From a virus: a stretch of DNA of 31,357 bases. The notes under the pieces were generated by a model, which saw only the letters and a program-made list of their open reading frames with translations, did no database searches and was not told the DNA's origin. A program made the translations under genes and the position numbers. The stretch is taken from positions 1-31,357 of IMG/VR virus record IMGVR_UViG_3300009164_002760; one strand, 5' to 3'. Shown piece after piece: positions 9-26,045 of the stretch (positions within the stretch are counted from its first letter, which is position 1; every line of letters begins with the position of its first letter).

Positions 9-83
9 TGGTACTCCGAACGGGTTTCGATCCCGCTTCTCCAACTTGAAAGGCTGGCGTCCTAGCCACTAGACGACCGGAGT
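9..83 (-). tRNA. tRNA-Glu(TTC), first copy
   Basis: Read on the minus strand it folds as a full cloverleaf: 7-bp acceptor stem ACTCCGG/TCGGAGT, anticodon stem CCAGC/GTTGG and loop CTTTCAA, giving anticodon TTC (reads GAA/GAG). Discriminator A and an encoded CCA (11-9) end the gene. A second Glu tRNA with the same anticodon lies at 483-557. Confidence 0.93.
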
Positions 84-88
84 ATATT

Positions 89-163
89 TGGTAGCCTAAG
101 GTGGGAACGATCCACCGACCTACCGCTTATCAAGCGGTTGCTCTACCACTGAGCTACTAGGCT
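89..163 (-). tRNA. tRNA-Ile(GAT)
   Basis: Minus-strand cloverleaf with acceptor AGCCTAG/TTAGGCT, the classic D-arm TAGCTCAGTGGTAGAGC, and anticodon arm ACCGC-TTGATAA-GCGGT with anticodon GAT. Discriminator A and an encoded CCA. Only 5 nt separate it from the neighbouring Glu and Ser tRNAs. Confidence 0.94.
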
Positions 164-168
164 GTTAT

Positions 169-258
169 TGGCGGAAGTAGTAGGATTCGAACCCACGGAC
201 CCTTTCGAGCCTTCAGTTTTCAAGACTGCTGCCTTAAGCCATGCTCAGCCATACTTCC
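169..258 (-). tRNA. tRNA-Ser(TGA)
   Basis: Class II tRNA with acceptor GGAAGTA/TACTTCC, D-arm beginning TGGCTGAGC, anticodon loop CTTGAAA (anticodon TGA), a long variable arm (GGCTCGAAAGGGTCC) and T-loop TTCGAAT. Discriminator G plus encoded CCA fits serine identity. The outermost anticodon-stem pair is a mismatch. Confidence 0.93.
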
Positions 259-264
259 TAAACT

Positions 265-345
265 TGGTGCCCCAGGCGGGAGTTGAACCCGCATTTAAAT
301 TTCTCTTTTTGAGAGAGACGACTTTGCCAATTTGTCTACCGGGGC
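265..345 (-). tRNA. tRNA-Leu(CAA)
   Basis: Acceptor GCCCCGG/CTGGGGC, D-arm GAC...GTC, anticodon arm TCTCT-CTCAAAA-AGAGA (anticodon CAA, reads UUG), and T-arm GCGGG/CCCGC. Discriminator A plus encoded CCA. The variable region is short (about 9 nt) for a leucine tRNA. Confidence 0.88.
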
Positions 346-389
346 AAAAGAAAAACTCCAACGCAATGACTATGTCTTAGAGGTCGGAG
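346..389 (-). terminator. hairpin plus T-tract inside the tRNA block
   Basis: On the minus strand CTCCGAC and GTTGGAG pair over 7 bp around a 20-nt loop, followed by TTTTTCTTTT. It lies between tRNA-Cys and tRNA-Leu and looks like a weak intrinsic terminator or a processing hairpin. The large loop makes strong termination doubtful. A decayed tRNA is an alternative. Confidence 0.4.
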
Positions 390-399
390 CCATGTTGTT

Positions 400-477
400 T
401 GGAGCAACGGGTGAGATTTGAACTCACGGTTTTACGGATTTGCAATCCGTTGCATTGGGCCACTCTGCCACCGTTGC
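400..477 (-). tRNA. tRNA-Cys(GCA)
   Basis: Acceptor GCAACGG/CCGTTGC, anticodon arm ACGGA-TTGCAAA-TCCGT (anticodon GCA) and T-arm GTGAG/CTCAC. Discriminator is T (U73), the classic cysteine identity base, followed by encoded CCA. Confidence 0.92.
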
Positions 478-482
478 GTTAT

Positions 483-557
483 TGGTACTCCGAAAGGGTA
501 TCGATCCCTCTTCTCCGCCTTGAAAGGGCAGCGTTCTAGCCAGTAAACTACCGGAGT
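483..557 (-). tRNA. tRNA-Glu(TTC), second copy
   Basis: Same acceptor stem and CTTTCAA anticodon loop as the copy at 9-83, but the D-arm, anticodon stem (CTGCC/GGCGG, two wobble-type changes) and T-stem differ. It is a diverged duplicate with an intact fold. Discriminator A and CCA are encoded. Confidence 0.88.
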
Positions 558-563
558 ATAATT

Positions 564-639
564 TGGCGTACCCTCAGGGCCTCGAACCCCGAACCTCTGG
601 TTTTGGAGACCAGCACTCTGCCAATTGAGCTAAGGATAC
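564..639 (-). tRNA. tRNA-Trp(CCA)
   Basis: Acceptor GTATCCT/AGGGTAC, D-arm TAGCTCAATTGGCAGAG, anticodon arm CTGGT-CTCCAAA-ACCAG with anticodon CCA. Discriminator G (tryptophan identity) and encoded CCA. The CCA anticodon reads UGG only, so it gives no support for reading UGA as Trp. Confidence 0.93.
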
Positions 640-644
640 ATTGT

Positions 645-736
645 TGGTACCAGCGGAGGGAATCGAACCCTCTCAAGAACGCTAATCTGGCGCTAAAAGG
701 TTTATAAAACCTCTCTGACTTCCAAGTCTCGCTGGC
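645..736 (-). tRNA. atypical class II tRNA, apparent anticodon TAT
   Basis: Acceptor GCCAGCG/CGCTGGT, D-stem GAC/GTC with only a 6-nt loop, T-arm GAGGG-TTCGATT-CCCTC, discriminator A and encoded CCA. It has a long variable arm (AGCGC/GCGTT), as in Leu, Ser or Tyr tRNAs. The anticodon loop is TTTATAA (or nine bases if the last A-T pair is open), which centres on TAT, an isoleucine AUA anticodon. Body and anticodon disagree, so the amino acid is left open. Confidence 0.7.
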
Positions 737-745
737 AATAATAAT

Positions 746-820
746 TGGCGGTCTCAAGGGGTAACGATCCCCTTCTTCAACAGTGACAGTGTTGTGTGCG
801 TCCGTGAACACTTTGAGACC
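746..820 (-). tRNA. tRNA-Asp(GTC)
   Basis: Acceptor GGTCTCA/TGAGACC, D-arm GTGT/GCAC, anticodon arm CAACA-CTGTCAC-TGTTG with anticodon GTC, T-arm GGGGA/CCCC region. Discriminator G (aspartate identity) plus encoded CCA. Confidence 0.9.
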
Positions 821-828
821 AAATTTTG

Positions 829-1023
829 TTAAGCTTCACCACGATACGTTATGCGGCAGCGTGTTTGTCCACCGAACTGTGCTTGTGCAATTCTAACAGC
901 ATCCCCTGACGAGTTAGCAGTAACCGTAGTTTCGAATTGATTTAGACTTTCAGTAATGAACGCACCACTAGTGCCTTCACCTGCGTAGTAACCAACTTCA
1001 ACATAAACTCGATGTGTTTGCAT
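829..1023 (-). CDS. small phage protein, unknown function
   Basis: A 64-residue protein lodged between tRNA-Asp and tRNA-Tyr. ATG start is preceded by AGAAAG and by its own sigma70-type promoter at 1056-1084, which leaves a leader of about 25 nt. The sequence is soluble-looking, with no signal peptide or membrane segment. An alternating N-terminal stretch (HRVYVEVGYYAGE) and a C-terminal QTRCRITYRGEA suggest a small beta-rich or alpha/beta fold with a central helix. I recognise no family. Its promoter probably also drives the tRNAs downstream, so expression is likely early and linked to translation support. Confidence 0.7.
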   Translation of the reverse strand: MQTHRVYVEVGYYAGEGTSGAFITESLNQFETTVTANSSGDAVRIAQAQFGGQTRCRITYRGEA

Positions 1024-1055
1024 TTTAGACTTTCTAAAAATTTCTAAGTGTTAAT

Positions 1056-1084
1056 AGTATAACACCGAACTTACAAAAAGTCAA
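1056..1084 (-). promoter_or_regulatory. sigma70 promoter for the 829 gene and tRNA block
   Basis: -35 TTGACT (1084-1079), 17-bp spacer, -10 TATACT (1061-1056) on the minus strand. It starts 5 nt after the end of tRNA-Tyr and fires towards the small gene and the nine downstream tRNAs. Confidence 0.8.
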
Positions 1085-1088
1085 GTAT

Positions 1089-1176
1089 TGGTGGATGAGG
1101 TAGGAGTCGAACCTACAACGTTTCTTATGTCACTGATTTACAGTCAGCTGCCTTCAACCATTCAGCACACTCATCC
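1089..1176 (-). tRNA. tRNA-Tyr(GTA)
   Basis: Class II tRNA with acceptor GGATGAG/CTCATCC, anticodon arm GCTGA-CTGTAAA-TCAGT (anticodon GTA), a long variable arm and T-arm GTAGG/CCTAC. Discriminator A and encoded CCA. Confidence 0.93.
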
Positions 1177-3043: not shown

Positions 3044-3495
3044 GATCGTTCTTTTGTTAGTTCACACATCAGTTGAAATTGCTCGTAGGCTCTACGAACG
3101 CTGTCATGTTTCATTAGTTTATCAGCTTCTTCCTGCATGGCTTTGACTCCAGCTTCAGCACAGTCATGCACACTTAGACCGTGTAGAGTACATAATTCGT
3201 CACCAAATTCTTTGGCTAGCTTTTCCCATGCCCGCTTCTGTCCTACGGTAATAGGAGTTTGTTTAGGACGTAGTTCGCTGGCCTTACTAATAGCCTTACA
3301 GATAGCATCTTCGGCAACTCGTCCAGCGGCAATCATAGCTGCATAGTTAGGATCAATGTTGTATCTGCGGCTCTGTCCGCCAGGGTAGCTCATAACTAAG
3401 TGTGTGCCTTTGGTAAAGCCATCCATGAAGTCGTTATCGTATTCGGCAACAGGCACATACCTGCGCCCAACTTTTTCATAATAGATTTTCTTCAT
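3040..3495 (-). CDS. conserved phage protein, unknown
   Basis: About 151 residues, starting MKKIYYEKVGRRYVPVAEYD. I prefer ATG 3495 because a start 24 codons upstream would add a hydrophobic leader lying wholly inside the previous gene. The body is mostly helical and charged (AEDAICKAISKASELRPKQ; GQKRAWEKLAKEFGDELCTLHG). No catalytic motif seen. It overlaps the upstream gene by 20 nt and the downstream DUF3307 gene by 4 nt. Proteins of this look occur in T4-like environmental phages, as far as I recall, always without a function. Confidence 0.75.
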   Translation of the reverse strand: MKKIYYEKVGRRYVPVAEYDNDFMDGFTKGTHLVMSYPGGQSRRYNIDPNYAAMIAAGRVAEDAICKAISKASELRPKQTPITVGQKRAWEKLAKEFGDELCTLHGLSVHDCAEAGVKAMQEEADKLMKHDSVRRAYEQFQLMCELTKERS

Positions 3496-3763
3496 AGGTT
3501 TCCCACGCTTTCTTTTCAAAATTCCAATGACGACTATCGTAGAAGTTAAAATGAACACAGTAGCCAAACAGCCCAGCTTCTAAATCTAAACCAGCGTGGG
3601 CTTGTCGTATGGTCCAACTAAACCCAAATGATACTAGACTACAATCCCTAATAAATTCTAATTCAATAAACTTGTGTTTAAATATAGTCTCGTAATTACG
3701 ACACCATAAGTTATCAAACCCATGTGTCCACGGATTACGGAGATTAAAATTAAATGAAATCAT
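3476..3763 (-). CDS. small aromatic-rich phage protein
   Basis: 95 residues, rich in Phe, Trp, Tyr and His (for example NPWTHGFDNLWCRN near the start and FNFYDSRHWNFEKKAWETY at the end). The central part (SLVSFGFSWTIRQAHAGLDLEAGLFGYCVHF) alternates like a beta-sheet. Start ATG 3763 overlaps the previous stop as ATGA. The pattern looks like a small globular phage protein conserved in T4-like viruses; no function is known to me. Confidence 0.75.
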   Translation of the reverse strand: MISFNFNLRNPWTHGFDNLWCRNYETIFKHKFIELEFIRDCSLVSFGFSWTIRQAHAGLDLEAGLFGYCVHFNFYDSRHWNFEKKAWETYEENLL

Positions 3764-3954
3764 TCAGGTACGGGCGAAAATCGATTTAAAAAACTTTCAA
3801 TATAACAACTATATTCTCGAGGTCCTGCTTCTAAAGACAAATTACTTTCGTCTCGATAATGCACCCAGGTATTACCATCTTGTTCTATAACATGCAGCAC
3901 AATAAATTTTTTATCGGGACTGCCACGCCACCTGCTGCCTTCTTTAATAATCAT
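3760..3954 (-). CDS. small beta-rich phage protein
   Basis: 64 residues from ATG 3954 (MIIKEGSRWRG), which has AAAGGAAA upstream; a longer frame to 3984 would overlap the preceding gene. The order GSRWRG, KFIVLHVIEQDGNTWVHYRDE, and YIESFLNRFSPV suggests an SH3-like small barrel followed by a helix. Similar short proteins are common in phages and prophages as regulators or host-factor binders, but nothing specific can be assigned. ATGA overlap with the next gene. Confidence 0.72.
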   Translation of the reverse strand: MIIKEGSRWRGSPDKKFIVLHVIEQDGNTWVHYRDESNLSLEAGPREYSCYIESFLNRFSPVPE

Positions 3955-3955
3955 G

Positions 3956-4363
3956 TTAGTTTCCTTTCCAATGTTCCGCCGCATCTTCCGGAACTTGTGT
4001 TGTCATATGTATCATGAATCTATAATGTTCCCAAGCTGTCTTGGCTGCAATATTATTTGCCATATTTGTTGGAAACAAATCTGCCCACAATGCTCCTTCG
4101 GGAATTCGAAACGCCCGAATGTTCTGCAGCCTAGGTTGGAACAACTTGCCGTCTTCAAATAATCGTAATCCAATCTTTTTACATTTTTCTTCATCTAATC
4201 CCATGAGATAATCGGGACGAACCATGTAGTCATCGATACACCATGTAATAGCTTCTGCATCTCTTAATGCTGTACCTGTAATTATAAATGCAACATCATC
4301 GTAACTAACTTCGTCGGTTACAATGTCTCTAATACATCTTCCCAAACTAAATCAGATTTTCAT
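3956..4363 (-). CDS. phage protein with an in-frame TGA at codon 4
   Basis: The body (from IRDIVTDEVSYDDVAFIITGTALRD to EDAAEHWKGN) is an intact reading frame of about 130 residues, helical, with no known domain. The only start with a ribosome site is ATG 4363 (AAGGG 5-6 nt upstream, immediately after the previous stop). Reading from it gives Met-Lys-Ile, then TGA (4354-4352), then Phe-Ser-Leu-Gly-Arg in the same frame as the body. TTG at 4345 could restart but lacks a ribosome site. TGA is a normal stop elsewhere here, so this is a nonsense change (perhaps TGG to TGA), readthrough or an assembly error. Confidence 0.65.
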
Positions 4364-4364
4364 A

Positions 4365-4586
4365 TTAGCCCTTAAGTATACAACGATACTCACGTTGTAA
4401 TTTCATCTTTGCATCGATGATAAATTTATTTCGATCTTTTTGATCTTGTGTTAACGTTACACCCACTGGTGTAAGTTCTGTCTCGTAAATTACACGAATA
4501 GATTTTTCACAACTGTTAATATTATCAAATGTTCCTAGTTGTGCAGGAGTTTGGTTTAATCCAAAAAACATTAAAATGTAAATCAT
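4365..4586 (-). CDS. small phage protein with hydrophobic N-terminus
   Basis: 73 residues from ATG 4586 (MIYILMFFGLNQTPAQLG), with AGGA 6 nt upstream and a promoter at 4616-4644 that leaves a 23-nt leader. An earlier in-frame start at 4628 would lie in front of the -10 box and is rejected. The first ten residues are hydrophobic, as in a short signal or anchor. Two cysteines (in NSCEKSIR and EYRCILKG) could form a disulphide if exported. Family not recognised. Confidence 0.7.
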   Translation of the reverse strand: MIYILMFFGLNQTPAQLGTFDNINSCEKSIRVIYETELTPVGVTLTQDQKDRNKFIIDAKMKLQREYRCILKG

Positions 4587-4615
4587 TCGATTCCTATGTG
4601 TGTTTATGTTTACAT

Positions 4616-4644
4616 AGTATAGCTTCAAAACTTATATTTGTCAA
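4616..4644 (-). promoter_or_regulatory. sigma70 promoter for the 4586-1785 gene run
   Basis: -35 TTGACA (4644-4639), 17-bp spacer, -10 TATACT (4621-4616), minus strand. The -35 overlaps the end of the upstream gene. It would drive genes from 4586 down through clpP to the terminator at 1746-1772. Confidence 0.85.
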
Positions 4645-4892
4645 CTACTCCATCGCATGGCAAACATAACAGCATCTTGTTCATTTTGAAAATACCATGC
4701 TCGATAACGAGATTCCTGTAAATCTCTAAACTTGTTTTGGCAATGTTCTAGACACCAAGTTAGTATATCGTTATAACTTTCTTCGTATTCTAATCGAACA
4801 ACATGATAATTTGCAAGTACCGCCATTAGACTTTCTGTAGGTTCCGGCCATTTAACCTTGCGACTTGCTGTCATCATTGGCGGCTTACTCAT
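4641..4892 (-). CDS. small phage protein of the 'LRW-tail' family, copy 1
   Basis: 83 residues from ATG 4892, whose TAATG overlap with the previous stop and AAGGAA site fix the start. It ends AWYFQNEQDAVMFAMRWSS. The same tail pattern (aromatic strand, acidic turn, helix with Phe, then Leu/Met-Arg/Lys-Trp) recurs in the genes at 5245, 5515, 5829, 6070 and 13805. The upstream part holds several Trp, Tyr and Cys residues. No function known. Confidence 0.75.
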   Translation of the reverse strand: MSKPPMMTASRKVKWPEPTESLMAVLANYHVVRLEYEESYNDILTWCLEHCQNKFRDLQESRYRAWYFQNEQDAVMFAMRWSS

Positions 4893-5245
4893 TAGCAGTT
4901 CCTTAATAACCACTCTGTCAGTCTAGGACCCATTAACTTAGCACGTACCTGATACTTATATCCGTACTGCATTATATCCGGAATCCTATACCAACTAGGT
5001 GTTTCTACAGCGTGTTCTATAATCCATTTACCAGCTTCACTGTTTTGCCAGTTATATAATGGCTCAGCGGCATATAAGTCTGGATCTTCAACATCACCCA
5101 ATGTAAACTCATGCACTACTATTTCTCGTATTTCTTCTACTTGATCGTTGACTATCATATATCTGTATGTATCAACTTTAGGTCGAGAGCCTAGATAACC
5201 CTGAGTAGGTAAAAATTGATATCCTTGAGTTTTCACTACTGACAT
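4892..5245 (-). CDS. conserved phage protein, unknown
   Basis: 117 residues from ATG 5245, with GAGGTGG upstream and a TGATG overlap with the previous stop. The N-terminal 25 residues are repeat-like (TQGYQFLPTQGYLGSRP), followed by a segment of strands (YRYMIVND, EIREIVVHEF) and a C-terminal helix ending GPRLTEWLLRNC. No membrane segment. Resembles unassigned proteins of T4-like environmental phages. It interrupts the series of LRW-tail genes but does not itself carry that tail. Confidence 0.72.
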   Translation of the reverse strand: MSVVKTQGYQFLPTQGYLGSRPKVDTYRYMIVNDQVEEIREIVVHEFTLGDVEDPDLYAAEPLYNWQNSEAGKWIIEHAVETPSWYRIPDIMQYGYKYQVRAKLMGPRLTEWLLRNC

Positions 5246-5511
5246 CACAACCACCTCAACTGAAATGCTGTTGCTTCTGAATCTTTCGTTATGTTAACAG
5301 TGTACATAGGATCGCCACTATTAAAACGATGTGTATAATCTGCTGTGGGACACATTCGTGTCATCCATTCTTCAAATGATCGATCATCCTCGGGATATAC
5401 CCAACAGGTCCAGCCTCGAGGAAGGATAATTTCTCCAAACTGATTTCCCGGATTAATAGGGGCTACACCGTCGTGGAATTCCCAATGGTGTACAAAAGTT
5501 TTAGTGTGCAT
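5245..5511 (-). CDS. LRW-tail family, copy 2
   Basis: 88 residues, ATG 5511 just after the preceding stop (5517-5515). Aromatic-rich (HHWEFHDGVAP, RGWTCWVYPEDD) and ending YTVNITKDSEATAFQLRWL, the motif shared with its neighbours. The middle holds FEEWMTRMCPTAD, comparable with the MMAWMIKQFGPSADN stretch of the next gene upstream, so the similarity extends beyond the tail. Function unknown. Confidence 0.75.
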   Translation of the reverse strand: MHTKTFVHHWEFHDGVAPINPGNQFGEIILPRGWTCWVYPEDDRSFEEWMTRMCPTADYTHRFNSGDPMYTVNITKDSEATAFQLRWL

Positions 5512-5514
5512 ATT

Positions 5515-5832
5515 TCATGACCATTTTAATAAAAATATTAACAGATCTTTTTCTTCACGGAACCAAAACTTGGCATTGTTAGCATACCAACGCATGTTAG
5601 GAGTCCACACTCCGTTGTCCGCACTTGGACCAAACTGTTTAATCATCCATGCCATCATTTCGTTCCATGCATCGCCATTGTTAGGATGCACAGTAAGATA
5701 CTCTGTTCCATAAATTGTACCCTTACTCAATTCAAACGGCTTCCAACCTATAGCAGTCATTAGGATTTCAGTGTCAATATCATGCGCCATTTTTCTGGCC
5801 GCTTGATTAAGAAGTTCTTTTTCTAAATTCAT
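5515..5832 (-). CDS. LRW-tail family, copy 3
   Basis: 105 residues from ATG 5832, chosen because it overlaps the previous stop as ATGA. N-terminal charged helix (LEKELLNQAARKMAHDID), then a strand/turn region, then EMMAWMIKQFGPSADNG and the tail FWFREEKDLLIFLLKWS. The layout strand-helix-strand-helix suggests a small ferredoxin-like or similar alpha/beta fold, which is an inference. No catalytic motif. Confidence 0.75.
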   Translation of the reverse strand: MNLEKELLNQAARKMAHDIDTEILMTAIGWKPFELSKGTIYGTEYLTVHPNNGDAWNEMMAWMIKQFGPSADNGVWTPNMRWYANNAKFWFREEKDLLIFLLKWS

Positions 5833-6083
5833 TTTAGTTCGTTGCCTTCTGCTGAACCCCAACGAAGCATAAACATAGTAGCGTCATAGTCATTTTCAAA
5901 TTGAAAATAAATTGCATGAACCTGTTCATTACGCCAAATACTTTTACAGTTGTTATCACACCAAGATTTCATCAGTGGAAGATTTGTGTAACCCACTCGA
6001 TTAAAATTAATTCTATAAGGAAACACAGCTCTTGCTCTAGTAGCAAGAACTTCCCCAATTGTTGCCACTTTAGTCCCGCCCAT
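5829..6083 (-). CDS. LRW-tail family, copy 4
   Basis: 84 residues, ATG 6083, overlapping the upstream gene by 14 nt. It carries FPYRINFNRVGYTNLPLMKSWCDNNC and the tail AIYFQFENDYDATMFMLRWG, closest to copy 1. A short extra tail (SAEGNELK) follows the motif. Unknown function; translation is coupled on both sides. Confidence 0.75.
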   Translation of the reverse strand: MGGTKVATIGEVLATRARAVFPYRINFNRVGYTNLPLMKSWCDNNCKSIWRNEQVHAIYFQFENDYDATMFMLRWGSAEGNELK

Positions 6084-6390
6084 TGCCGTATCTCAACAAA
6101 AACATTGTACGTTTCTGCTCATCGTAGAAATCCAAACAGATAGTATGATAAGCATTCTTGCCTTCATACCATCCTAACTCTACTACGGGATACCATTCAC
6201 CGTCTAGAGGAGGTCTAACGTAATTAGGATCTTTTACATACTCTCTATGTTCACGTACTGTAAATCCTAATACGTTTTTCATCTTTTCACGTGATAGATA
6301 AACAGAGGGCTTTTCCCTCTGTTTAATCTTGTCTAATATTAATGCCCATTGTTGGGGTAACATTGTAATCGGTTTACTTGTTATGCTCAC
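6070..6390 (-). CDS. LRW-tail family, copy 5
   Basis: 106 residues from GTG 6390 (GTGA overlap with the previous stop; AGGA about 7 nt upstream). Sequence includes LPQQWALILDKIKQREKPSV, a charged middle and DGEWYPVVELGWYEGKNAY, and ends CLDFYDEQKRTMFLLRYG, in which Tyr replaces the usual Trp. It is the longest member of the tandem set. No known domain. Confidence 0.75.
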   Translation of the reverse strand: MSITSKPITMLPQQWALILDKIKQREKPSVYLSREKMKNVLGFTVREHREYVKDPNYVRPPLDGEWYPVVELGWYEGKNAYHTICLDFYDEQKRTMFLLRYGNGRD

Positions 6391-6707
6391 GACCAAGTCC
6401 TGTGTACTTCAGCTACCCATTCAACTCCGTCGTACTCTGCAATGTCCCATTTTACATCGCCCGGAACTTCGATAATCTTAAGATTAGCATGAACTCCATT
6501 TGCACCCATACCTAACTCACGAACAATTTTTACAAGATAAGGATCATCTCTTGCAATGTTTCGATCAGAAAAATCAGTGTCAGTGATACCGGCAAGTTTT
6601 TTATATTCTTGAACAGCACGTTCGCTCAAACCAAAACCACCGTAACAGTCGTTGATAACTATCCATTGTATTCCACGTAGAGCATTCATCAATTCTTCGT
6701 TTGACAT
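6387..6707 (-). CDS. conserved phage protein, unknown
   Basis: 106 residues from ATG 6707 (TGAGGT upstream). It begins MSNEELMNALRGIQWIVIND, has CYGGFGLSERAVQEYKK, then a likely metal-free acidic stretch, and ends KWDIAEYDGVEWVAEVHRTWS. The combination 'IVINDCYGGFGLS ... YDGVEWVAE' is one I recall from several unrelated phages, always unassigned. Directly downstream of the phosphoesterase gene in the same transcript. Confidence 0.75.
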   Translation of the reverse strand: MSNEELMNALRGIQWIVINDCYGGFGLSERAVQEYKKLAGITDTDFSDRNIARDDPYLVKIVRELGMGANGVHANLKIIEVPGDVKWDIAEYDGVEWVAEVHRTWS

Positions 6708-8958: not shown

Positions 8959-10965
8959 TTACTTGTACTGTTGATCAATCATTTCTTGATGTAGCCTATC
9001 ACTGCCACCAGTGAGTCCTCTTAACAATCTTACATTGTCAACAGTCTTTTGATTTTTATAAACTTCCTTTGGCTCGTAGAATGCTACATCTTTTAATACA
9101 AATGAATATGCGTTAAATCCTGCAGGAGTTATTGCCATAGTGGCAAGATCCACTCCGCCTGCTAATTCGTTTGACTGTACATTTCTATTCACTGTACTGG
9201 TCTGTTGTTGTATATTATCCTGCATCAACTCAAAACGCTGTTGCATCATCATTTCTGATAGTGGATTACCAACCTTACCTATGCCTCCAAAACTGGCTAC
9301 TTGCATTGGCGGTATTTCAGCGTCTACAGGTCTTGCTTCTATTCTAGGTTGGTATACGGGTGATGTTTGTGCAACTGGGGACGACATGTTAGATACAGTA
9401 AATGCAGACAACGGATTATATCCCAGCGTATTTTTATTAACTGTAATACCGGTACCACTAGACTGCTGTTGAGTTTCTGTTGCTACTTGTGCAGGAGGTT
9501 TTAACATAACAACACTAGTTGATTGTATTTCTACTTGTTGACTAGCTGTTGTAGTTTGTTGAACTTGCTGAACAGTTTTGTTAGTTTGTTGCTGTTGTGT
9601 GGTAGTTTGTTGCTGTTGTTGTTGCGACACTTGTGTTGTTGACTGTGTTGTTGTCTGCTGACTAGCTTGTGTTGTTTGACTAGAGAACTGTGCGGCTGCG
9701 GTAGCACTATTAGCACTCATGTCTTGATTCATACTAACTGCGGCATTACTAGCGGCATTTGAACTTTGTACGGTTCCTTCAAATGCTTTAGCGGCATTTT
9801 GTACAGCCATTTGCTGAGTTGCTTTATCATTTGCCTGCGCTGTTTTAACCACACTCATTGCCAACTTACTAGGGCCAGCACCTCCTCCGCCTTGTTGTGG
9901 ACCTGCAGATTGTGGACCAGCACTTGGAGGTGGAGCATTTGCTGTTTGTGTAGCTTGTGGAGGACCGCCAGCAGGTTGTGCTTGTGTAGGTGCAGGTCCT
10001 TGCTGTTGTGGACTAGGCTGTGAGGGATTATCTTGAGGACCGCCAGGATTTTGATTTGGATCTTGTCCTTGTGGTCCAGGAGCAGGACCTTGTGGTCCAG
10101 GAGCAGGTTGCTGTGCCTGTTGTTGTGGACTTGCTTGAGCCAATGCCGGTGCCGCGTCTGCTACACCTGGAGGAGCTGCCGCAGGTGCAGGTGATCCATA
10201 GTTGATTGCAGGCACAAATGATGTTGCAGATGCATTTGAAACTGTAGACCCTAATATTGAATTTTTAACAGTGGCTAACGCATATCCTGGGCAAGTGGCA
10301 CTTGATAATGGATCAGCAATACATGGATCGGGTCTAGCCGAATATTTTAAACTAAAACTAACATTATAAATTTCTGGACCGTAGTTGCCTGCCCAGAAAT
10401 TATTATCTCTGCCGATAAAGCCTACTCGTGCAGTACTCAGGCTTGATGCAGTATAAGGTGTGGCGAATGTTTCGCTAAAATTAAAATTAGTCCAATTATA
10501 TTTTTGATTAGTTTGTGCTGTATAATCGTAGTTGGCAACTTGACTACCAGTGCTTCCGTATAATTTAACATAGGCAGACAAATAGTCTTGTCTAGCATCA
10601 TCCCAACCATTGCCGTTTTTAGCCCTAAATCCAAAGTTAAATCCGCTAAGTTGTACAACACTTCCGCTGATAGACAATGCTTTGTTTATGTTAACTATTT
10701 GATTTAAATCTACAGTACCGTAGGAAAAGTTAATATTACTGCCATCCCTAATACTGGGGTTTGGTCCACAGTTACCCGGCTGTCCTGCACCAAAGCATAG
10801 TTGGTTAACATAGACACCATTGTTCCAAATGCTAGTTGTAGTCGTAGGAGTACTACCAGTATTGATTAGATTACCGGTAGTAGTGTCTACTGTTTGACTA
10901 TTAGAATAACTTGAACACAAGAGCCCCAAGCAGAGCACCAATGCCAACTTTCTTATAAGTGTCAT
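8959..10965 (-). CDS. large exported Gln/Pro-rich protein
   Basis: 668 residues. Residues 1-24 are a Sec signal peptide (Arg-Lys, then a Leu/Val-rich core, SNSQT at the cleavage region). Residues 50-210 look like a beta-sandwich domain (many aromatic/Asn strands, Cys57-Cys66 and Cys215-Cys225 pairs). Residues 255-365 are Pro/Gln/Gly-rich, 415-480 are Gln/Thr-rich runs, and 560-668 is a conserved-looking C-terminus (DLATMAITPAGFNAYSF; NVRLLRGLTGG). The start codon lies inside the upstream gene (65-nt overlap), GAGG 9 nt before it. A secreted fibre, adhesin or envelope-associated phage protein is plausible; no family is recognised. Confidence 0.8.
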   Translation of the reverse strand: MTLIRKLALVLCLGLLCSSYSNSQTVDTTTGNLINTGSTPTTTTSIWNNGVYVNQLCFGAGQPGNCGPNPSIRDGSNINFSYGTVDLNQIVNINKALSISGSVVQLSGFNFGFRAKNGNGWDDARQDYLSAYVKLYGSTGSQVANYDYTAQTNQKYNWTNFNFSETFATPYTASSLSTARVGFIGRDNNFWAGNYGPEIYNVSFSLKYSARPDPCIADPLSSATCPGYALATVKNSILGSTVSNASATSFVPAINYGSPAPAAAPPGVADAAPALAQASPQQQAQQPAPGPQGPAPGPQGQDPNQNPGGPQDNPSQPSPQQQGPAPTQAQPAGGPPQATQTANAPPPSAGPQSAGPQQGGGGAGPSKLAMSVVKTAQANDKATQQMAVQNAAKAFEGTVQSSNAASNAAVSMNQDMSANSATAAAQFSSQTTQASQQTTTQSTTQVSQQQQQQTTTQQQQTNKTVQQVQQTTTASQQVEIQSTSVVMLKPPAQVATETQQQSSGTGITVNKNTLGYNPLSAFTVSNMSSPVAQTSPVYQPRIEARPVDAEIPPMQVASFGGIGKVGNPLSEMMMQQRFELMQDNIQQQTSTVNRNVQSNELAGGVDLATMAITPAGFNAYSFVLKDVAFYEPKEVYKNQKTVDNVRLLRGLTGGSDRLHQEMIDQQYK

Positions 10966-12187
10966 CTATTTTTGCCTCATCTAACTTTGGTATTTTATCT
11001 ACATTAGCTTCCCATTCAGCTTTGGCTTGTAGACCAATCTTACCTTCGTATGGGCAAGGTGTTCCTGCAGCCAACATAGCGTCAAACACACGACGGTCTT
11101 GACACATGGTAGCAACTGCGGCTACCTTCATACCCATATCATATAATGTTTTAGATAACTTTAGTCGTTCGCAATTCATATCACGAACTGTTCCACCACC
11201 ACTCACACCAAAGATTTGCGTTTGTATACTACCGCTAGTACCCGTTGAGCATAGGTCAGCATTACCGCCACTCATCATTGATGGTGCTACAGCGGTAGGA
11301 GGTGGTTGAATAACACGCTGAGTAATCTCTGTTTTATTAATGTTAGTGTTGGTCATTTCACCACTGTTGATGTTCTGATTAACATTGGCGTTTTGATTAA
11401 CATTGTTGCTTGTACTAGTGTTTGTATTGTTATTGTTGTTGGTCATACTACCACTTTGTACATTGTTATTAGTCATTGTACCGCTATTAATGTTAGTGTT
11501 AGTATTGTTAGATGTAGACGTACTATTATTAATATTACGGTTAGTCATATCACCTGTATTAACATTATTATTAGTATTTGTACTTGTGCTAGTACTGGTG
11601 TTGATATTACGATTAGTCATATCACCTGTGTTGATATTTCTATTTGTGTTATCGCTGGTACTAGTGTTGATGTTATTGTTTGTGTTAACACTGGTACTGG
11701 CATTATTGTTATTGTAGGTCATTGTACCGGTATTAACATTGTTATTTTGATTAACATTTGTACTTGTGCTTGCACTTGTGCTGGTATTAACATTGTTGTT
11801 GTTATTAGTCATTGTACCTGTATTAACGTTGTTATTGTTAAACGTTTGAGTACCGCTATTAATATTGTTATTGTTATTGTTATTAGTGTAAGTCACCGAA
11901 CCACTCATAACGTTGTTATTATTGTTATTGTTGGTCAGTGTGCCGCTGTTAACATTAATGTTGTTGTTAGTGTTAGTTGTGCCACCACTTAACGCAGTAT
12001 TGTTGTTAGTTGTCACGGTACCACTATTAACATTGTTAGTGTTGATTGTGCTTGTACTGGTAGTAGTACTATTAGTATCAACTAGACTTTTTGAGTCATA
12101 GGTGCCCTGATTAATTAATGTCTGGCCGTTTGCAGCCCAAGATATTAAGAGGGCCGAAATACCTAAAAGTATTCTTGTTTTTTTCAT
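10901..12187 (-). CDS. exported Asn/Thr-repeat protein
   Basis: 428 residues; AGGAG before ATG 12187. Signal peptide at 1-21 (MKKTRILLGISALLISWAA). Residues 48-285 are degenerate repeats of about 10-14 residues built on 'N-V/I-N-S/T-G-x-M-T-N-N-N', over half Asn and Thr. The regular turn-and-strand spacing is what beta-solenoid or amyloid-like fibres show. Residues 305-395 form a Cys-containing domain (C313, C339, C362, C378; RDMNCERLKLSKTLYDMG), and 414-428 is a hydrophobic tail. Probably exported with the Gln-rich neighbour. Function unknown; ice-, curli- or adhesin-like roles are only analogies. Confidence 0.82.
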   Translation of the reverse strand: MKKTRILLGISALLISWAANGQTLINQGTYDSKSLVDTNSTTTSTSTINTNNVNSGTVTTNNNTALSGGTTNTNNNINVNSGTLTNNNNNNNVMSGSVTYTNNNNNNNINSGTQTFNNNNVNTGTMTNNNNNVNTSTSASTSTNVNQNNNVNTGTMTYNNNNASTSVNTNNNINTSTSDNTNRNINTGDMTNRNINTSTSTSTNTNNNVNTGDMTNRNINNSTSTSNNTNTNINSGTMTNNNVQSGSMTNNNNNTNTSTSNNVNQNANVNQNINSGEMTNTNINKTEITQRVIQPPPTAVAPSMMSGGNADLCSTGTSGSIQTQIFGVSGGGTVRDMNCERLKLSKTLYDMGMKVAAVATMCQDRRVFDAMLAAGTPCPYEGKIGLQAKAEWEANVDKIPKLDEAKIDDTYKKVGIGALLGALVFKLF

Positions 12188-12280: not shown

Positions 12281-12562
12281 TTAAAGATCTTGTTTTCGTT
12301 GGACTGAAAAGTAGGGTTTGATAACATTAAAGAAACTATCCCAATCTGTAATCTCGGGATAGTTTTTAAATACACTGTAATACCAACGATCTTCGTATTG
12401 ATTAATGTATTGTTTGCCGTTTGAGGCTGTTTTAACGTGCTTCTGAAAGAGAGGTTTTATATCTGAAGGAATAGAGTTGCCGTTGTGGCCTCCCCACCAT
12501 CTTGCGACTAATTTAGGTTTAAATTTGTCTTTTTGTATTTTATCAAAATCACTTGCTCTCAT
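12281..12562 (-). CDS. small phage protein, unknown
   Basis: 93 residues from ATG 12562; no clear ribosome site, so initiation is probably coupled to the bilin-reductase gene that ends 8 nt upstream. Basic first half (RASDFDKIQKDKFKPKLVARWWGGH), then a Trp/Tyr-rich second half (YEDRWYYSVFKNYPEITDW). An 8-bp inverted repeat AACAAGAT/ATCTTGTT spans its stop codon. No recognised domain. Could be an accessory to the heme-bilin genes, by position only. Confidence 0.7.
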   Translation of the reverse strand: MRASDFDKIQKDKFKPKLVARWWGGHNGNSIPSDIKPLFQKHVKTASNGKQYINQYEDRWYYSVFKNYPEITDWDSFFNVIKPYFSVQRKQDL

Positions 12563-12569
12563 CAAGTAT

Positions 12570-13253
12570 TTATTTGATTTCTGGAAACAAACAATCTTGA
12601 ATAAATGTTGTTACATCACTTTCACTTAGGCCTAGACTTACCATGACCTTAGGTGTATGCGGATTTTGCTTTTGATTTTCACAATAATAATTTTGTGAAG
12701 CAGTAGTGTCATTGGCCGTAGCATTAGTTTCACTTACTGTTTCTACGTAATGATTAACTAGAATGTGTGCTAGACTTGCAAGTTGCTTTAGTTCACTTTC
12801 ATCGTTTACATTGCCCGCAGCTACCATATGTTCACTGAAAATACGTTCTGCCCACTCTGGTAGTTTGCGCTTTTTATTCCACTCGTAACGTCCAACTTCA
12901 TCACCAAAGTATTCGATCATAGGATGTTCTGAATCTCCAGCTGGACTGTAATCAATAAAACAACCAGTAATCTTGTTTTTACCGGCTATAACATCAAATC
13001 CAAATATTGGTGCAGGATTATGTGTATGAGGAAAGATGCAACAATGCATCATCCAGAGTCCTTTGGATTCTCTGGCATCTACAACATCGACGTGAGCCCT
13101 ACGATAAGCGTCACTGGTCCAAACACGATTAACCCAACCAGGTTGATTAAATTGTTCCATGCCTGGCTCAAAGATTTCTTTTCCTGTTTTGTCAAATTTA
13201 TTTTCTAACAGGTGTTGAATCTCAATCAATGTGTTCCAAACATTACTCTCCAC
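12570..13253 (-). CDS. ferredoxin-dependent bilin reductase (PcyA/PebS/PcyX family)
   Basis: 227 residues. Reduces biliverdin to a phycobilin with electrons from ferredoxin. The family core is clear: WMMHCCIFPH, then PIFGFDVIAG, then GCFIDYSP (residues 67-104), matching PcyA's LHCVMFPEP, LFGCDIVAG and AIADLSP. His70 and Asp87 correspond to PcyA His88 and Asp105. The PcyA Glu76 position appears to be Asp56, so the product may not be phycocyanobilin. The C-terminal YYCENQKQNPHTPKV also matches. It starts at GTG 13253, 11 nt inside the heme oxygenase gene, giving a two-gene heme-to-bilin cassette. PebS of cyanophages and PcyX of marine viral metagenomes are the known viral relatives. Confidence 0.88.
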   Translation of the reverse strand: MESNVWNTLIEIQHLLENKFDKTGKEIFEPGMEQFNQPGWVNRVWTSDAYRRAHVDVVDARESKGLWMMHCCIFPHTHNPAPIFGFDVIAGKNKITGCFIDYSPAGDSEHPMIEYFGDEVGRYEWNKKRKLPEWAERIFSEHMVAAGNVNDESELKQLASLAHILVNHYVETVSETNATANDTTASQNYYCENQKQNPHTPKVMVSLGLSESDVTTFIQDCLFPEIK

Positions 13254-13788
13254 TATACAAATCTCTCATCATTTTAATAGCGTACTCAAAAGCTATACGA
13301 GCTTCGTCACCTAGGTCGTCTGTAAGTGTTTGTCTTATGGCCATTTTCATAGCATCTGCATTTTCAAAGTCGTAGAACTTACCACTCGAAATATGTGCTA
13401 CTTGCTTCTTAATGATTTGCCCGCCAAATAAATCACCCATATGTCGGCAATATAAATGTGCTTTAATTAAATGTTTATATTCTGGGTCATTACCAATTGA
13501 ATGCAAGTATGCCTGATACTCTAGTGTAGCAGTGGTTAGATAGCAATACGAGCCATCGTCTAATTCCATAAAGTCAGCATAGATACCTTTAAGACGAGGT
13601 AGGTCTGGCATATTATCGAGGAAACCCTGACGTTTACAGTACCATTCAATTGGATCATATATTGCTAGTAAATTATAGAGATAGTTTCTATAATCTGCTT
13701 TACCAATTTTCCCACTAAGTAACATCTTAGCGAATGTTGTTGTTTCTGCCTCGTGATGGAGGTCTTTAGTGATATCTTTTAAGCTCAT
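13243..13788 (-). CDS. heme oxygenase
   Basis: 181 residues. Opens heme to biliverdin IX-alpha, CO and Fe2+ using reduced ferredoxin. The proximal heme ligand is in KDLHHEAE (His11/His12, His12 best), and the distal helix is HMGDLFGGQIIKK (Gly118-Gln124), the glycine-rich signature of the family. The length is shorter than cyanobacterial HO1 (about 240) but fits bacterial and phage forms. The stop overlaps the bilin reductase start, so both enzymes are made together. Besides bilin, it would release iron from host heme, which may matter for the Fe-dependent enzymes at 27599-29939. Confidence 0.92.
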   Translation of the reverse strand: MSLKDITKDLHHEAETTTFAKMLLSGKIGKADYRNYLYNLLAIYDPIEWYCKRQGFLDNMPDLPRLKGIYADFMELDDGSYCYLTTATLEYQAYLHSIGNDPEYKHLIKAHLYCRHMGDLFGGQIIKKQVAHISSGKFYDFENADAMKMAIRQTLTDDLGDEARIAFEYAIKMMRDLYSGE

Positions 13789-13804: not shown

Positions 13805-14065
13805 TTATCTAAATCTTAGGACGAAGAATAAGAGATCTTCTTCTCGATCCATTTTAATGATGTAATTAACTTGATCGAATCTTTGATACTGCCATTTTAT
13901 TCCCATTGGTCCAAGAGCCTGAGAAATAAAATTTAGCATTGATTTTTTGCCTTTGATGCCCTGTGACATCAGCGTTGAACGCTGATCTCTAAACTGTACC
14001 CAATATCCAAACCTCTGAGCACCAGTGCGTTGATGTTTAATTAAACGCACGTCGTCAAATGTCAT
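13805..14065 (-). CDS. LRW-tail family, distant copy 6
   Basis: 86 residues; ATG overlaps the clpS stop as ATGA. N-terminal MTFDDVRLIKHQRTGAQRFG, middle SMLNFISQALGPMGIKWQY, tail NYIIKMDREEDLLFFVLRF. The end matches the motif of the tandem proteins at 4641-6390 although it lies 7.5 kb away. More basic than the other copies. Lies between clpS and heme oxygenase genes. Unknown role. Confidence 0.7.
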   Translation of the reverse strand: MTFDDVRLIKHQRTGAQRFGYWVQFRDQRSTLMSQGIKGKKSMLNFISQALGPMGIKWQYQRFDQVNYIIKMDREEDLLFFVLRFR

Positions 14066-14361
14066 TCTTCTTCTATATTGATCTGTAAAGGAAATCCATT
14101 AGAACGAGCAAGGTGTGTACATTCAATACCTCTTTGTTCTGCAATCTCGTGTGTAAAAATTCCCACAACTGCACTACCTTCATTATGAATTTCTAAGGTA
14201 ATATTTCTTGCATCATTTTCAGTATGCTTAAAAACTTCAGTTAACAGGTCCATGACAAACTCCATAGGCGTTTGATCATCATTTAGAAAAATCACCTTCC
14301 ACATTTTGGGTGGCTGAAGTGATACTTTAATTTTTTCATCAAGTTGTACGTCTGTGGACAT
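14062..14361 (-). CDS. clpS: ClpS N-degron adaptor
   Basis: 99 residues. ClpS hands proteins with destabilising N-termini (Leu, Phe, Tyr, Trp) to ClpAP and can block other substrates. The signature WKVIFLNDDQTPMEFV (Asn27-Asp28-Asp29 lining the N-end-rule pocket), the helix MDLLTEVF, the conserved His59 (E. coli His66) and the C-terminal GFPLQINIEEE are present, and the N-terminal extension is short. It is complete by the family's usual length (about 100). Together with the phage ClpP at 2048 it suggests redirection of host Clp proteolysis. Confidence 0.94.
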   Translation of the reverse strand: MSTDVQLDEKIKVSLQPPKMWKVIFLNDDQTPMEFVMDLLTEVFKHTENDARNITLEIHNEGSAVVGIFTHEIAEQRGIECTHLARSNGFPLQINIEEE

Positions 14362-14380: not shown

Positions 14381-14404
14381 GTAGGGGAAGTTCCCTTCCC
14401 CTTT
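14381..14404 (-). other. GC-rich hairpin between hsp20 and clpS
   Basis: GGGGAAG-GGAA-CTTCCCC on the minus strand (7 bp, perfect), 20 nt upstream of the clpS start region's leader side. No T-tract follows on the minus strand, so it is more likely an mRNA processing or stability element than a terminator. A similar AGGGG/CCCCT hairpin sits between dnaK and hsp20 (14886-14907). Confidence 0.4.
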
Positions 14405-14410
14405 ATTATA

Positions 14411-14857
14411 TTACTTAACTTCTACAATGTCAATGACTCTTGGCTTTTCAGAGTCAGGAATATTGCGGAATAGTTTAACTATCAGCATACCATTCTTGAT
14501 TTCTGCACCTTTGACTTCTATATGTTCAGCGAGTGGAAATTCACGAACAAAGTCACGGGTAGCAAGACCTCTATGTAAGTAAACAATGTCTGGATTTTCG
14601 TGGCGAACAGATTCCTCTCCGTCACCCCTGATTGTAAGAACATTTGATTCTACAGTAACCGCAATTTCGTTTTTCTCAAATCCCGTCACTGCAATTTGAA
14701 TCTCGTACTGATTCTCACCAGTCTTGAGTATATTGTGTGGAGGATAGTTGTTGCCTACGGAATTAGAAAATCTGCGTTCCATAGTGTCAAACATTGTGTC
14801 AAACCCAACTAGGGCTCTGTTAAGTGCTTCTATTCTAGATATTTGATTGTTGTTCAT
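14411..14857 (-). CDS. Hsp20 / IbpA-type small heat-shock protein
   Basis: 148 residues from ATG 14857, with AAGGAG 6 nt upstream. The alpha-crystallin domain occupies about residues 38-135: strand-rich QYEIQIAVTGFEKNEIAVTV, then VLTIRGDGEE, the typical YLHRGLATRDFVREFPLAEH and IKNGMLIVKLFRNIPD. N-terminal MNNNQISRIEALNRALVGFD is the usual aromatic oligomerisation arm. It holds unfolding proteins for refolding by DnaK, whose gene is directly upstream in the same transcript. Small heat-shock proteins are known in cyanophages and related T4-like viruses. Confidence 0.93.
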   Translation of the reverse strand: MNNNQISRIEALNRALVGFDTMFDTMERRFSNSVGNNYPPHNILKTGENQYEIQIAVTGFEKNEIAVTVESNVLTIRGDGEESVRHENPDIVYLHRGLATRDFVREFPLAEHIEVKGAEIKNGMLIVKLFRNIPDSEKPRVIDIVEVK

Positions 14858-14915
14858 AATAGTCTCCTTAAAAAGTAAGAACAATTAGGGGCCTCGAAAG
14901 TACCCCTGTTTATGA

Positions 14916-16820
14916 TTAGTCTGCTTTCTTCTCTGTGAAGGTAGCGTCAACTATATCATCTTGTGCAGGTTGTGGTTGAGCAGTAGCTTGTGTTTCTGCT
15001 TGTTCCTTGGCCTGCTTTTTCTCCAACAATGTTTTCATTGCTGGAAGAACCTTTTCTAGTTCTGATTTAATCAGATCAACATCTTCACCTTGTCGTGCAT
15101 CTTCAACTGCTTTGATTGCAGTTTCGATATCTGCAATTTCAGTTTCAGTGAGTTCAGATTTAAATTCTTCTAGATCTTTTTTCACTTCATGCAATGTTGC
15201 TTCTGCTGAATTACGAGTTTCAATTAAGGTACGTGCTTTCTTATCTGAATCTGCGTTAATCTCAGCTTCTTGCACCATGCGTTCGATTTCTTCCTTGCTA
15301 AGTCCACTATCTGACTTGATAGTAATCTTATTTTCTTTGCCGGTGGTTTTATCTTTAGCGGATACATGCATGATACCGTTTGCATCAATATCGAAAGTAA
15401 CTTCAATCTGTGGCTGTCCACGACGTTGAGGTTGGATACCTTCAAGATTGAATTCGCCTAGCAACTTGTTGTACTGAACCAGTTCACGTTCACCTTGGAA
15501 CGCTTTGATAGTAACAGCCGGCTGATTGTCTTCTGCTGTAGAGAATGTCTGGCTAGCTTTGGTTGGAATAGTTGTGTTCTTCTGAACCAACTTGCTCATG
15601 ATACCGCCCATGGTTTCGATACCTAGGCTCAACGGAGTAACGTCTAGTAATAGAACATCACTGCGTCCACCACCTAGAACATCACCTTGAATAGCAGCAC
15701 CAACTGCAACTGCTTCGTCTGGGTTAACATCTTTACGTGGAGCCTTACCGAATAGTTTCTCAACTGCTTCTTGCACCTTAGGCATACGTGTCATACCGCC
15801 AACAAGAATAACTTCGTCAATGTCTGAGGCTGTAACACCTGCATCTTGCATTGCAGTCTTACAAGGTACAATGCTTCGTTGGATTAGTTCATCAACTAAC
15901 TGCTCTAGTTTGCTACGAGTAAGTGTGATGTTCATGTGCTTAGGACCACTTGCATCCGCTGTAATGTAGGGCAAGTTGACAGAAGTTTGCGCACTGCTAG
16001 ACAATTCAATTTTAGCTTTTTCAGCAGATTCTTTTAATCGTTGTAGTGCAAGTACATCTTTAGTTAGATCAACACCTTGATCCTTGCGGAATTCTTCAAC
16101 TAAGAAATCCATAATGCGTTGGTCAAAGTCTTCACCGCCCAAGAATGTGTCACCGTTGGTGCTTAGTACTTCGATTTGTTTATCGCCTTCGACATTCGCA
16201 ATTTCAATGATTGATACGTCGAATGTACCGCCACCAAGGTCGTAAACAGCAATTTTCCTGTCAGCTTTATCAGCTTTATCAACGCCATAACTAAGAGCTG
16301 CCGCAGTAGGCTCGTTAATAATACGGAGTACTTCCAGGCCTGCGATTTTTCCAGCATCCTTAGTCGCCTGTCTTTGGCTGTCGTTAAAGTACGCAGGAAC
16401 TGTAATAACTGCTTGGGTAACTTCATGTCCTAAATAGTCCTCTGCTGTCTTTTTCATTTTACGCAGAACTTCAGCACTAATCTGCGGCGGTGCTAATTCT
16501 TGTCCTTGTGCTCGAATCCATGCATCGCCGTTTTTAGCTTCCATGATTTCGTAAGGCATCAAGTCGATGTCTTTCTGCACAGCTTGTTCGCTGAACTTTC
16601 GTCCAATCAAACGCTTACTTGCATAGATTGTGTTTTTGGGATTTGTTACTGCTTGACGCTTTGCGCTTGCGCCTACTAGAATTTCATCATTAGCGTATGC
16701 AACAATACTAGGTGTAGTACGTGCGCCTTCTGAATTTTCAATTACTTTTGCAACACCGTTTTCGATGATTGCCACGCATGAATTTGTTGTACCGAGGTCG
16801 ATACCGATGATCTTAGACAT
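14916..16820 (-). CDS. dnaK: full-length DnaK (Hsp70) chaperone
   Basis: 634 residues, same length as bacterial DnaK. The ATPase domain opens [14 protein letters not shown], has [42 protein letters not shown] and [12 protein letters not shown]; the linker reads [15 protein letters not shown]; then come the beta-sandwich substrate domain and the helical lid, ending in an acidic tail before EKKAD. No gaps or missing catalytic residues. AAGGAG precedes ATG. From memory it looks betaproteobacterial ([21 protein letters not shown]). DnaJ and GrpE are not in the window, so it probably uses the host's. Complete DnaK in a phage is unusual. Might assist capsid folding, Hsp20 clients or Fe-S transfer from IscU. 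Confidence 0.97.
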
Positions 16821-25438: not shown

Positions 25439-25525
25439 TTAGGCAGCTAGAGCAACTTTGCTTGCGCCAGTAACAGAGTTACCAGTGAAGCTCATTGCGC
25501 TGAAGTCGAATGTATCTGCGTTTGC
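25439..25525 (-). other. tmRNA tag reading frame
   Basis: Inside the coding piece, starting at resume codon GCA (25525): 28 residues, ANADTFDFSAMS..., ending SKVALAA and TAA at 25441-25439. The upstream AAAAATCGTAAAT resembles the run before the E. coli resume codon, and -ALAA is the usual degradation signal. It is longer than most tags (about 8-15). The in-frame ATG at 25555 could give a 38-residue protein, which the surrounding tRNA-like parts make less likely. Confidence 0.8.
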
Positions 25526-25636
25526 ATTTACGATTTTTGCTTGGATTACGTCCATCGCCTCTCGTGTTGCCGTCTCTAACTATTTGCCCAATCGATTACC
25601 AGAGCAGGCCCACCTAAATAGTCTCGGCCACCATTA

Positions 25637-25710
25637 TGGTGGATATAGCGAGAATCGACCTCGCATTTGATAGAGTCGGAGTCCATCTGTCCTACTTGGA
25701 CGATATACCC
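25637..25710 (-). tRNA. tRNA-Arg(CCG) inside the tmRNA intervening segment
   Basis: Acceptor GGGTATA/TATATCC (one G-T), D-stem GTCC/GGAC, anticodon arm ATGGA-CTCCGAC-TCTAT with anticodon CCG, T-arm GCGAG-GTCGATT-CTCGC, discriminator A and encoded CCA. It begins 13 nt after the end of the acceptor piece and ends 25 nt before the coding piece. Its processing would help separate the two tmRNA pieces. Confidence 0.88.
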
Positions 25711-25723
25711 GATACTACTTAGG

Positions 25724-25786
25724 TGGACCTGGCCGGATTCGAACCGGCGTCTTGAACACATCCTTGTCGAAGGGATTACAACAATT
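25724..25786 (-). ncRNA. tmRNA acceptor piece
   Basis: Contains GGATGTGTTCAAGACGC, T-stem/loop GCCGG-TTCGAAT-CCGGC, the 3' acceptor strand CAGGTCC and discriminator A. Next come CC and T, so the final A of the CCA end must be added after processing, unlike the eleven tRNAs here, which encode CCA. Its 5' end is estimated from the csp stop codon. Confidence 0.85.
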
Positions 25787-25788
25787 TC

Positions 25789-25992
25789 TTAGGCGGGCTG
25801 AATATTGCTAGCCTGCTCGCCTTTTGGTCCTACTGTCACTTCAAAATTAACTGTCTGTCCTTCTTTCAAACTCTTGAAGCCACTTGAATTAATCTGTGAA
25901 AAGTGTGCAAATAAATCTGCGCCACCACTGTCCGGAGTAATGAATCCAAAACCTTTTGCATCATTAAACCATTTTACTTTACCTGTTACCAT
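25789..25992 (-). CDS. csp: cold-shock protein
   Basis: 67 residues, complete. Single-strand nucleic-acid-binding OB barrel: [15 protein letters not shown] (RNP1), DLFAHF (RNP2), and [20 protein letters not shown] at the end, very close to betaproteobacterial CspA/CspE forms from memory. Melts RNA structure and anti-terminates. AGGAAATAAG precedes ATG. Its stop is only a few bases ahead of the tmRNA acceptor piece, so the two are probably on one transcript. Confidence 0.95.
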
Positions 25993-26045
25993 TTTACTTA
26001 TTTCCTGTTGTGTTAAAATTTGCTGTGTGTATACTTATCTATCGA

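Follow-up and report, generated by a model that had tools for sequence, protein, structure and literature searches.

Why would a phage with no photosynthesis genes in view encode both enzymes leading from heme to a phycobilin? This question was raised by a first-pass annotation of the IMG/VR virus record IMGVR_UViG_3300009164_002760 (31,357 nt; hereafter the window, meaning the whole stretch of DNA that was analysed), which had described a heme oxygenase (HO) and a bilin reductase overlapping by 11 nt. Both genes were found intact on the minus strand of this 31-kb record with exactly that overlap, and a photosystem gene was recognised nowhere in the window:

12570-13253, minus strand: pcyX, encoding a ferredoxin-dependent bilin reductase of 227 aa; start codon GTG; catalytic residues Asp56, His70 and Asp87
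13243-13788, minus strand: hemO, encoding a heme oxygenase of 181 aa; His11 on the proximal side, GDLFGG (residues 118-123) on the distal side
13243-13253, minus strand: hemO/pcyX overlap of 11 nt, read from the sequence

The other two forward frames of the pair contain 14-27 stops, an alignment query found relatives in at least 584 viral contigs, and HO adjoins the reductase in 80 of the 82 first loci, the remaining two having little upstream sequence. These results show that the gene pair is real, far beyond chance. The two genes overlap or nearly touch in nearly all relatives, and the 11-nt overlap probably reflects translational coupling. Strong purifying selection is established for both genes (median dN/dS 0.056 and 0.071, ratios that are rough because dS is high).

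The reductase matches the Pfam family PF05996 (Fe_bilin_red) with an E value of 1e-17. Its best sequence match in the PDB is 5OWG (PcyX_EBK42635, E 4e-66), compared with E 1e-17 for Synechocystis PcyA, and its AlphaFold model (pLDDT 93.1) likewise has 5OWG as top fold match (Foldseek E 3e-15). The PcyA equivalog profile NF002760 gave 99 bits, under its cut-off of 206. In a maximum-likelihood tree, built without the alphaproteobacterial AX-clade PcyA and without CB_2 PcyA, the window reductase grouped with 5OWG and the enzyme of Pelagibacter phage Mosig in the PcyX clade (support 100/97), apart from PcyA and PebS. The phylogeny proposed in the first-pass annotation thus places the protein inside the ferredoxin-dependent bilin reductases (FDBRs); of the suggested PebS- or PcyX-like character, the PcyX half held and the PebS half did not. 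In the alignment, Glu76, His88 and Asp105 of PcyA correspond to Asp56, His70 and Asp87, which bears out the suspected exchange of the catalytic Glu76 for Asp. Among 167 distinct FDBRs, this position is Asp in 162/162 phage PcyX-type sequences and Glu in 5/5 cyanophage PcyAs. PcyX without Glu76 and the AX clade have already been published (PMC10151467). By sequence, clade and predicted fold, the window reductase is a PcyX.

PcyX makes phycoerythrobilin (PEB) (Wegner et al. 2024, PMC11480375). Considering this activity together with the PcyX clade and fold and with Asp56, PEB is probably the product of the window enzyme. A different product, be it PCB, DHBV or a new isomer, appears unlikely. It is true that the window PcyX is just ~48-50% identical to characterised PcyX, and that the enzyme of phage CB_2, likewise filed as PcyA/X, was found to make PCB (PMC11480375). 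However, the likely reason offered for the CB_2 product is that this enzyme has no PcyX-specific Asp55 (PMC11480375). When we count along the alignment, Asp55 of the marine enzyme corresponds to Asp56 of the window reductase, the catalytic Asp that is kept in all 162 phage sequences and missing in CB_2, and the window reductase lies within the PcyX clade.

The HO matches Pfam PF01126 (Heme_oxygenase, E 5e-21) and Synechocystis HO-1 (E 4e-11), and its AlphaFold model (pLDDT 89.9) has heme oxygenases as fold matches. His11 and G118/D119/G122/G123 of the distal GDxxGG motif are invariant in 91/91 distinct HO/PcyX pairs. This points to an HO-1 type heme oxygenase with a predicted activity of heme to biliverdin IX-alpha, and we consider it highly probable that the enzymology of HO and PcyX is as assigned here.

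Median pairwise identity was 73% for PcyX versus 43% for HO; within window-type loci, PcyX sequences are at least 61% identical to each other, while HO, clustered at 60% identity, forms ten groups. HO and PcyX distances were uncorrelated (rho 0.04), compared with 0.50 for clpS-hsp20 in the same set. A precise in-place exchange of HO was considered but is not demonstrated, as clpS-PcyX and clpS-HO distances were only weakly correlated too (0.13) and there is a single pair in which PcyX and ClpS are both 85% or more alike while HO stays under 60%. Given the weak clpS correlations and this single discordant pair, general recombination is the safer reading. HO alleles appear to vary independently of PcyX, and the fact that they change while PcyX stays suggests that the complete heme-to-bilin step is kept, not HO alone.

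The pair lies among stress genes and a candidate promoter:

12281-12565, minus strand: 94-aa ORF without a family match, 4 nt downstream of pcyX
13805-14065, minus strand: 86-aa ORF between clpS and hemO, with homologues in 17 loci
14062-14361, minus strand: clpS, Clp protease adaptor homologue (PF02617, E 2.5e-27)
14405-14433, minus strand: perfect sigma-70 consensus, TTGACA-17-TATAAT, before clpS
14411-14884, minus strand: hsp20, small heat-shock protein (PF00011, E 8.5e-16), conserved in synteny
14916-16820, minus strand: dnaK chaperone, full length, ~65% identity to annotated DnaK

This synteny is established across the relatives. The order dnaK-hsp20-clpS-hemO(-pcyX) occurs in 67 of the 76 distinct window-type loci whose upstream sequence is long enough, and clpS lies upstream of HO in 72/76 loci for which 4 kb or more of upstream sequence exists. 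The gap between clpS and hemO has a median of -1 nt, with direct contact in most relatives. A chaperone and ClpS neighbourhood of this kind favours a stress setting. Matches of 12/12 to the promoter consensus within 160 nt before clpS were found in 19/81 loci, compared with 1.2% of random windows from the same loci. The sigma-70 element is probably the promoter of clpS-ORF86-hemO-pcyX, read early by the host polymerase.

Further features were observed in this part of the window. A G/C-rich hairpin (14383-14402) directly follows the sigma-70 consensus on the minus strand. Several of the small minus-strand ORFs (~85-120 aa) at 3476-6396 and 13805-14065 share an 'FxLRW'-like C-terminus; we suspect that they form one family, with an overall identity below 20%. 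Two secreted-looking low-complexity proteins, one N/T-repeat-rich and one Q/P-rich, are encoded at 8959-12187 (minus strand) and kept in 15-17 related loci.

The phage assignment made at first sight proved sound: the window is an IMG/VR virus record, and a close relative of 356 kb carries a T4-type terminase, tail sheath and DNA polymerase. A first scan retrieved 414 viral contigs with relatives (best 80 at 74-85%) and a Mosig query retrieved 194, and the relatives' records reach 353-364 kb. This suggests that the window virus belongs to a T4-type jumbo phage group that is large and widespread. Several of the IMG/VR datasets presumably represent freshwater lakes. A clue to the host came from one RNA gene:

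25439-25824, minus strand: permuted (two-piece) tmRNA of betaproteobacterial type (RF01850, 102.6 bits, cut-off 84; RF04321, 116.5 bits)

Betaproteobacterial-type tmRNA scored above cut-off in 25/45 records (44 window-type plus Mosig), in line with the proteobacterial look of the genes remarked on earlier. As a control, the tmRNA of Mosig, a SAR11 phage, is of the alphaproteobacterial type and matches its host. The tmRNA type is nevertheless no proof of host, as the OM43 phage Melnitz has an alphaproteobacterial tmRNA (PMC9004378). From the tmRNA type we infer that the host is probably a betaproteobacterium, and probably a non-photosynthetic water bacterium. The window also contains ten clustered tRNA genes (9-1176, minus strand) and a cspA thermoregulator match below threshold (25754-26000, minus strand) over a CspA-like gene (25789-25992).

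A genome scan revealed five bacterial loci, namely four MAG contigs and the isolate Shewanella surugensis DSM 17177 (Gammaproteobacteria). One of the MAG contigs (L216; 335 kb, Neomarinimicrobiota) has the jumbo-phage gene order, with a CN-hydrolase gene between HO and PcyX, and is probably a misbinned phage. The genes of S. surugensis, the sole FDBR carrier among 398 sampled Pseudomonadota genomes, lie on two contigs (L303:2488-3258 and L217:5450-6219), both outside recognisable phage context. One contig carries an HO together with a broken pcyX-like gene, close to a transposase-like gene; the other encodes a bilin reductase that is intact but divergent, in which Asn takes the place of PcyA Glu76. 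A BLAST search of the tmRNA against 369 genomes of Shewanella's class returned four fragments only (24-45 nt) and no host clue.

Other genes of the phages bear on how the pair might be used. At the far end of the window, ~14 kb from hemO, lie several genes of iron and redox metabolism:

27599-28699, minus strand: nrdB, ribonucleotide reductase small chain, an iron user (PF00268, E 1e-40)
28723-29049, minus strand: iscA-like Fe-S assembly gene (PF01521, E 1.2e-16; TIGR02011, E 2e-40, under its cut-off)
29021-29404, minus strand: iscU Fe-S scaffold (PF01592, E 9e-54; TIGR01999, 224 bits, cut-off 192)
29391-29939, minus strand: Fe/Mn superoxide dismutase (PF02777, E 4e-20)
29936-31357: nrdA (PF02867, E 1e-76)

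The window also encodes peroxiredoxin (AhpC), a CMD protein and glutaredoxin. IscU is found in 22/34 records, including all four above 200 kb. AlaS, absent from the 31-kb window, occurs in 16/33 records, including all three above 350 kb. A 7Fe-type ferredoxin, FdxA, was detected by tblastn in three of the four records above 200 kb, the exception being one 353-kb relative. This type was recognised only on reading the 356-kb record, whose FdxA (L325:1771-2094, i.e., 181771-182094) reaches 162.6 bits (cut-off 135); its relatives occur in at least 273 viral contigs. Plant-type ferredoxin and GAF domains were each found in 0/34 phage records, and phycobilisome proteins above cut-off in 0/33, so that we found no phage-encoded bilin acceptor; absence from a single record proves little, since most records are fragments. 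Phycobilisome matches under cut-off, inside frames of 753 and 3470 aa, were taken as chance. A supposed second bilin reductase in one record (G005) was dismissed as well, being a weak match of 14.9 bits where the open frames resemble other genes.

It is above all the purpose of the pair that we infer with reserve. We give about an even chance to the favoured one, a heme-turnover or redox-stress service under infection. The hemO-pcyX pair, in a same-strand run with dnaK-hsp20-clpS, would be read early from the strong sigma-70 promoter before clpS. Heme stripped from host proteins under infection stress would be opened by HO to biliverdin IX-alpha, Fe2+ and CO, and the heme iron could be recovered for IscU/IscA, ribonucleotide reductase and superoxide dismutase. 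PcyX would reduce biliverdin to PEB in a four-electron step; this removal of biliverdin would draw the reaction forward, and the bilin left behind would be reduced and antioxidant. Electrons for both enzymes would come from reduced ferredoxin, either the host's or, in the three of the four largest relatives that carry it, perhaps the phage's own 7Fe-type FdxA, which might then be the donor to PcyX. Iron recovery fits the co-encoded IscU/IscA, ribonucleotide reductase and Fe/Mn superoxide dismutase, although genes at this distance from hemO could be unrelated. Iron release, one of the uses first suggested for the bilin genes, thus keeps some plausibility from these genes and loses weight with AlaS in the longest relatives: AlaS feeds heme synthesis, and heme that is made and then broken brings no iron gain, which weakens simple iron release and favours the bilin as end product.

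That the bilin itself is the goal, with AlaS raising tetrapyrrole flux and PEB acting as free antioxidant, photoprotectant or signal, is a reading we regard as conceivable but rather doubtful. It would fit the presence of AlaS in all records above 350 kb, the redox-defence genes of the window (SOD, AhpC, CMD, glutaredoxin) and a PcyX that is under constraint and more conserved than HO. However, neither GAF domains nor phycobilisome proteins supply a bilin-binding protein in the phage records, and AlaS may rather support heme for respiration, as has been proposed (PMC11480375). We consider it improbable that the phage alters light sensing by supplying the bilin as chromophore to a photoreceptor of the host, be it a phytochrome, a cyanobacteriochrome or another one. 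PEB, the predicted product, does bind phytochromes but prevents them from photoconverting normally, and the same GAF and phycobilisome searches left the phytochrome ligand of the first-pass annotation without a phage-side partner. In its favour, CB_2 PcyA can supply functional phytochrome in E. coli, and the hemO-pcyA-alaS genes of Bradyrhizobium ORS278 adjoin a phytochrome (PMC11480375). Light harvesting in a cyanobacterial host is the function of the family in cyanophages with PebS or PcyA (PMC13198022, PMC11480375), but it is very unlikely here, given the betaproteobacterial-type tmRNA, the lack of phycobilisome proteins above cut-off in the records and of a recognised photosystem gene in the window, and the distance of PcyX from cyanophage PcyA/PebS in the tree. 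Beside the favoured heme-turnover or redox-stress service, we tentatively put forward the possibility that the phage tetrapyrrole line is nearly self-sufficient (AlaS flux, HO, PcyX and its own FdxA), making PEB in a non-phototrophic betaproteobacterium from a chaperone and proteolysis stress operon for a role unrelated to light harvesting.

The novelty implied at the outset is smaller than thought, as HO with PcyX in a SAR11 phage and HO with PcyA and AlaS in a methanotroph phage, both phages of non-photosynthetic bacteria, have been published (PMC11480375), and AlaS in phages is the published valaS trait. In the openly searchable literature, outside which subscription papers and preprints fall, neither the stress-operon context nor a betaproteobacterial-type tmRNA in these phages nor the co-encoded FdxA turned up. 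To judge from the literature searched, what is new comprises the at least 584 contigs, the T4-type phages of 353-364 kb, the DnaK-Hsp20-ClpS-HO-PcyX order, the betaproteobacterial-type tmRNA, HO alleles independent of PcyX, and, in the largest relatives, the presence of AlaS, IscU/IscA and usually FdxA together with the lack of GAF domains, phycobiliproteins and plant-type ferredoxin. Bilin genes in phages of non-photosynthetic bacteria have been called enigmatic (PMC11480375). With hundreds of contigs, long genomes and a probable host class, this phage group makes their role easier to test, and further handles are the constant stress-gene neighbourhood, what is probably an early promoter and a phage-encoded candidate for the electron donor.

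Among known systems, cyanophages with PcyA or PebS share the FDBR fold and the HO partner in T4-like phages. They differ in that their PcyA has Glu and their PebS resembles PebA in sequence, in that their hosts are photosynthetic, and in having photosynthesis genes such as cpeT or psbA nearby. The AlaS-HO-PcyA/X cassettes of phage CB_2 (PMC11480375; PMC7674155) have a counterpart in the longest relatives of the window, where AlaS, HO and the reductase are likewise encoded by one large phage of a probably non-photosynthetic host, with the cassette broken up; the CB_2 reductase, however, is without the PcyX Asp and makes PCB, and its proposed host is Methylocystis (Alphaproteobacteria). The PcyX and HO of marine phage metagenomes (EBK42635, 5OWG) and of Pelagibacter phage Mosig EXVC030M share with the window an overlapping HO-then-PcyX cassette, Asp-type catalytic residues, a phage tmRNA and a host that is non-photosynthetic (probably so for the window). 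Yet these PcyX proteins are 48-50% identical to that of the window, and the Mosig cassette has 2OG-oxygenases, ferrochelatase and T4-type neck genes as its neighbours (in Mosig-type loci the neck genes come after pcyX), whereas the window type follows dnaK-hsp20-clpS. The Mosig tmRNA is alphaproteobacterial in contrast to the betaproteobacterial type of the window, and its genome of 141 kb compares with 353-364 kb for the window's relatives.
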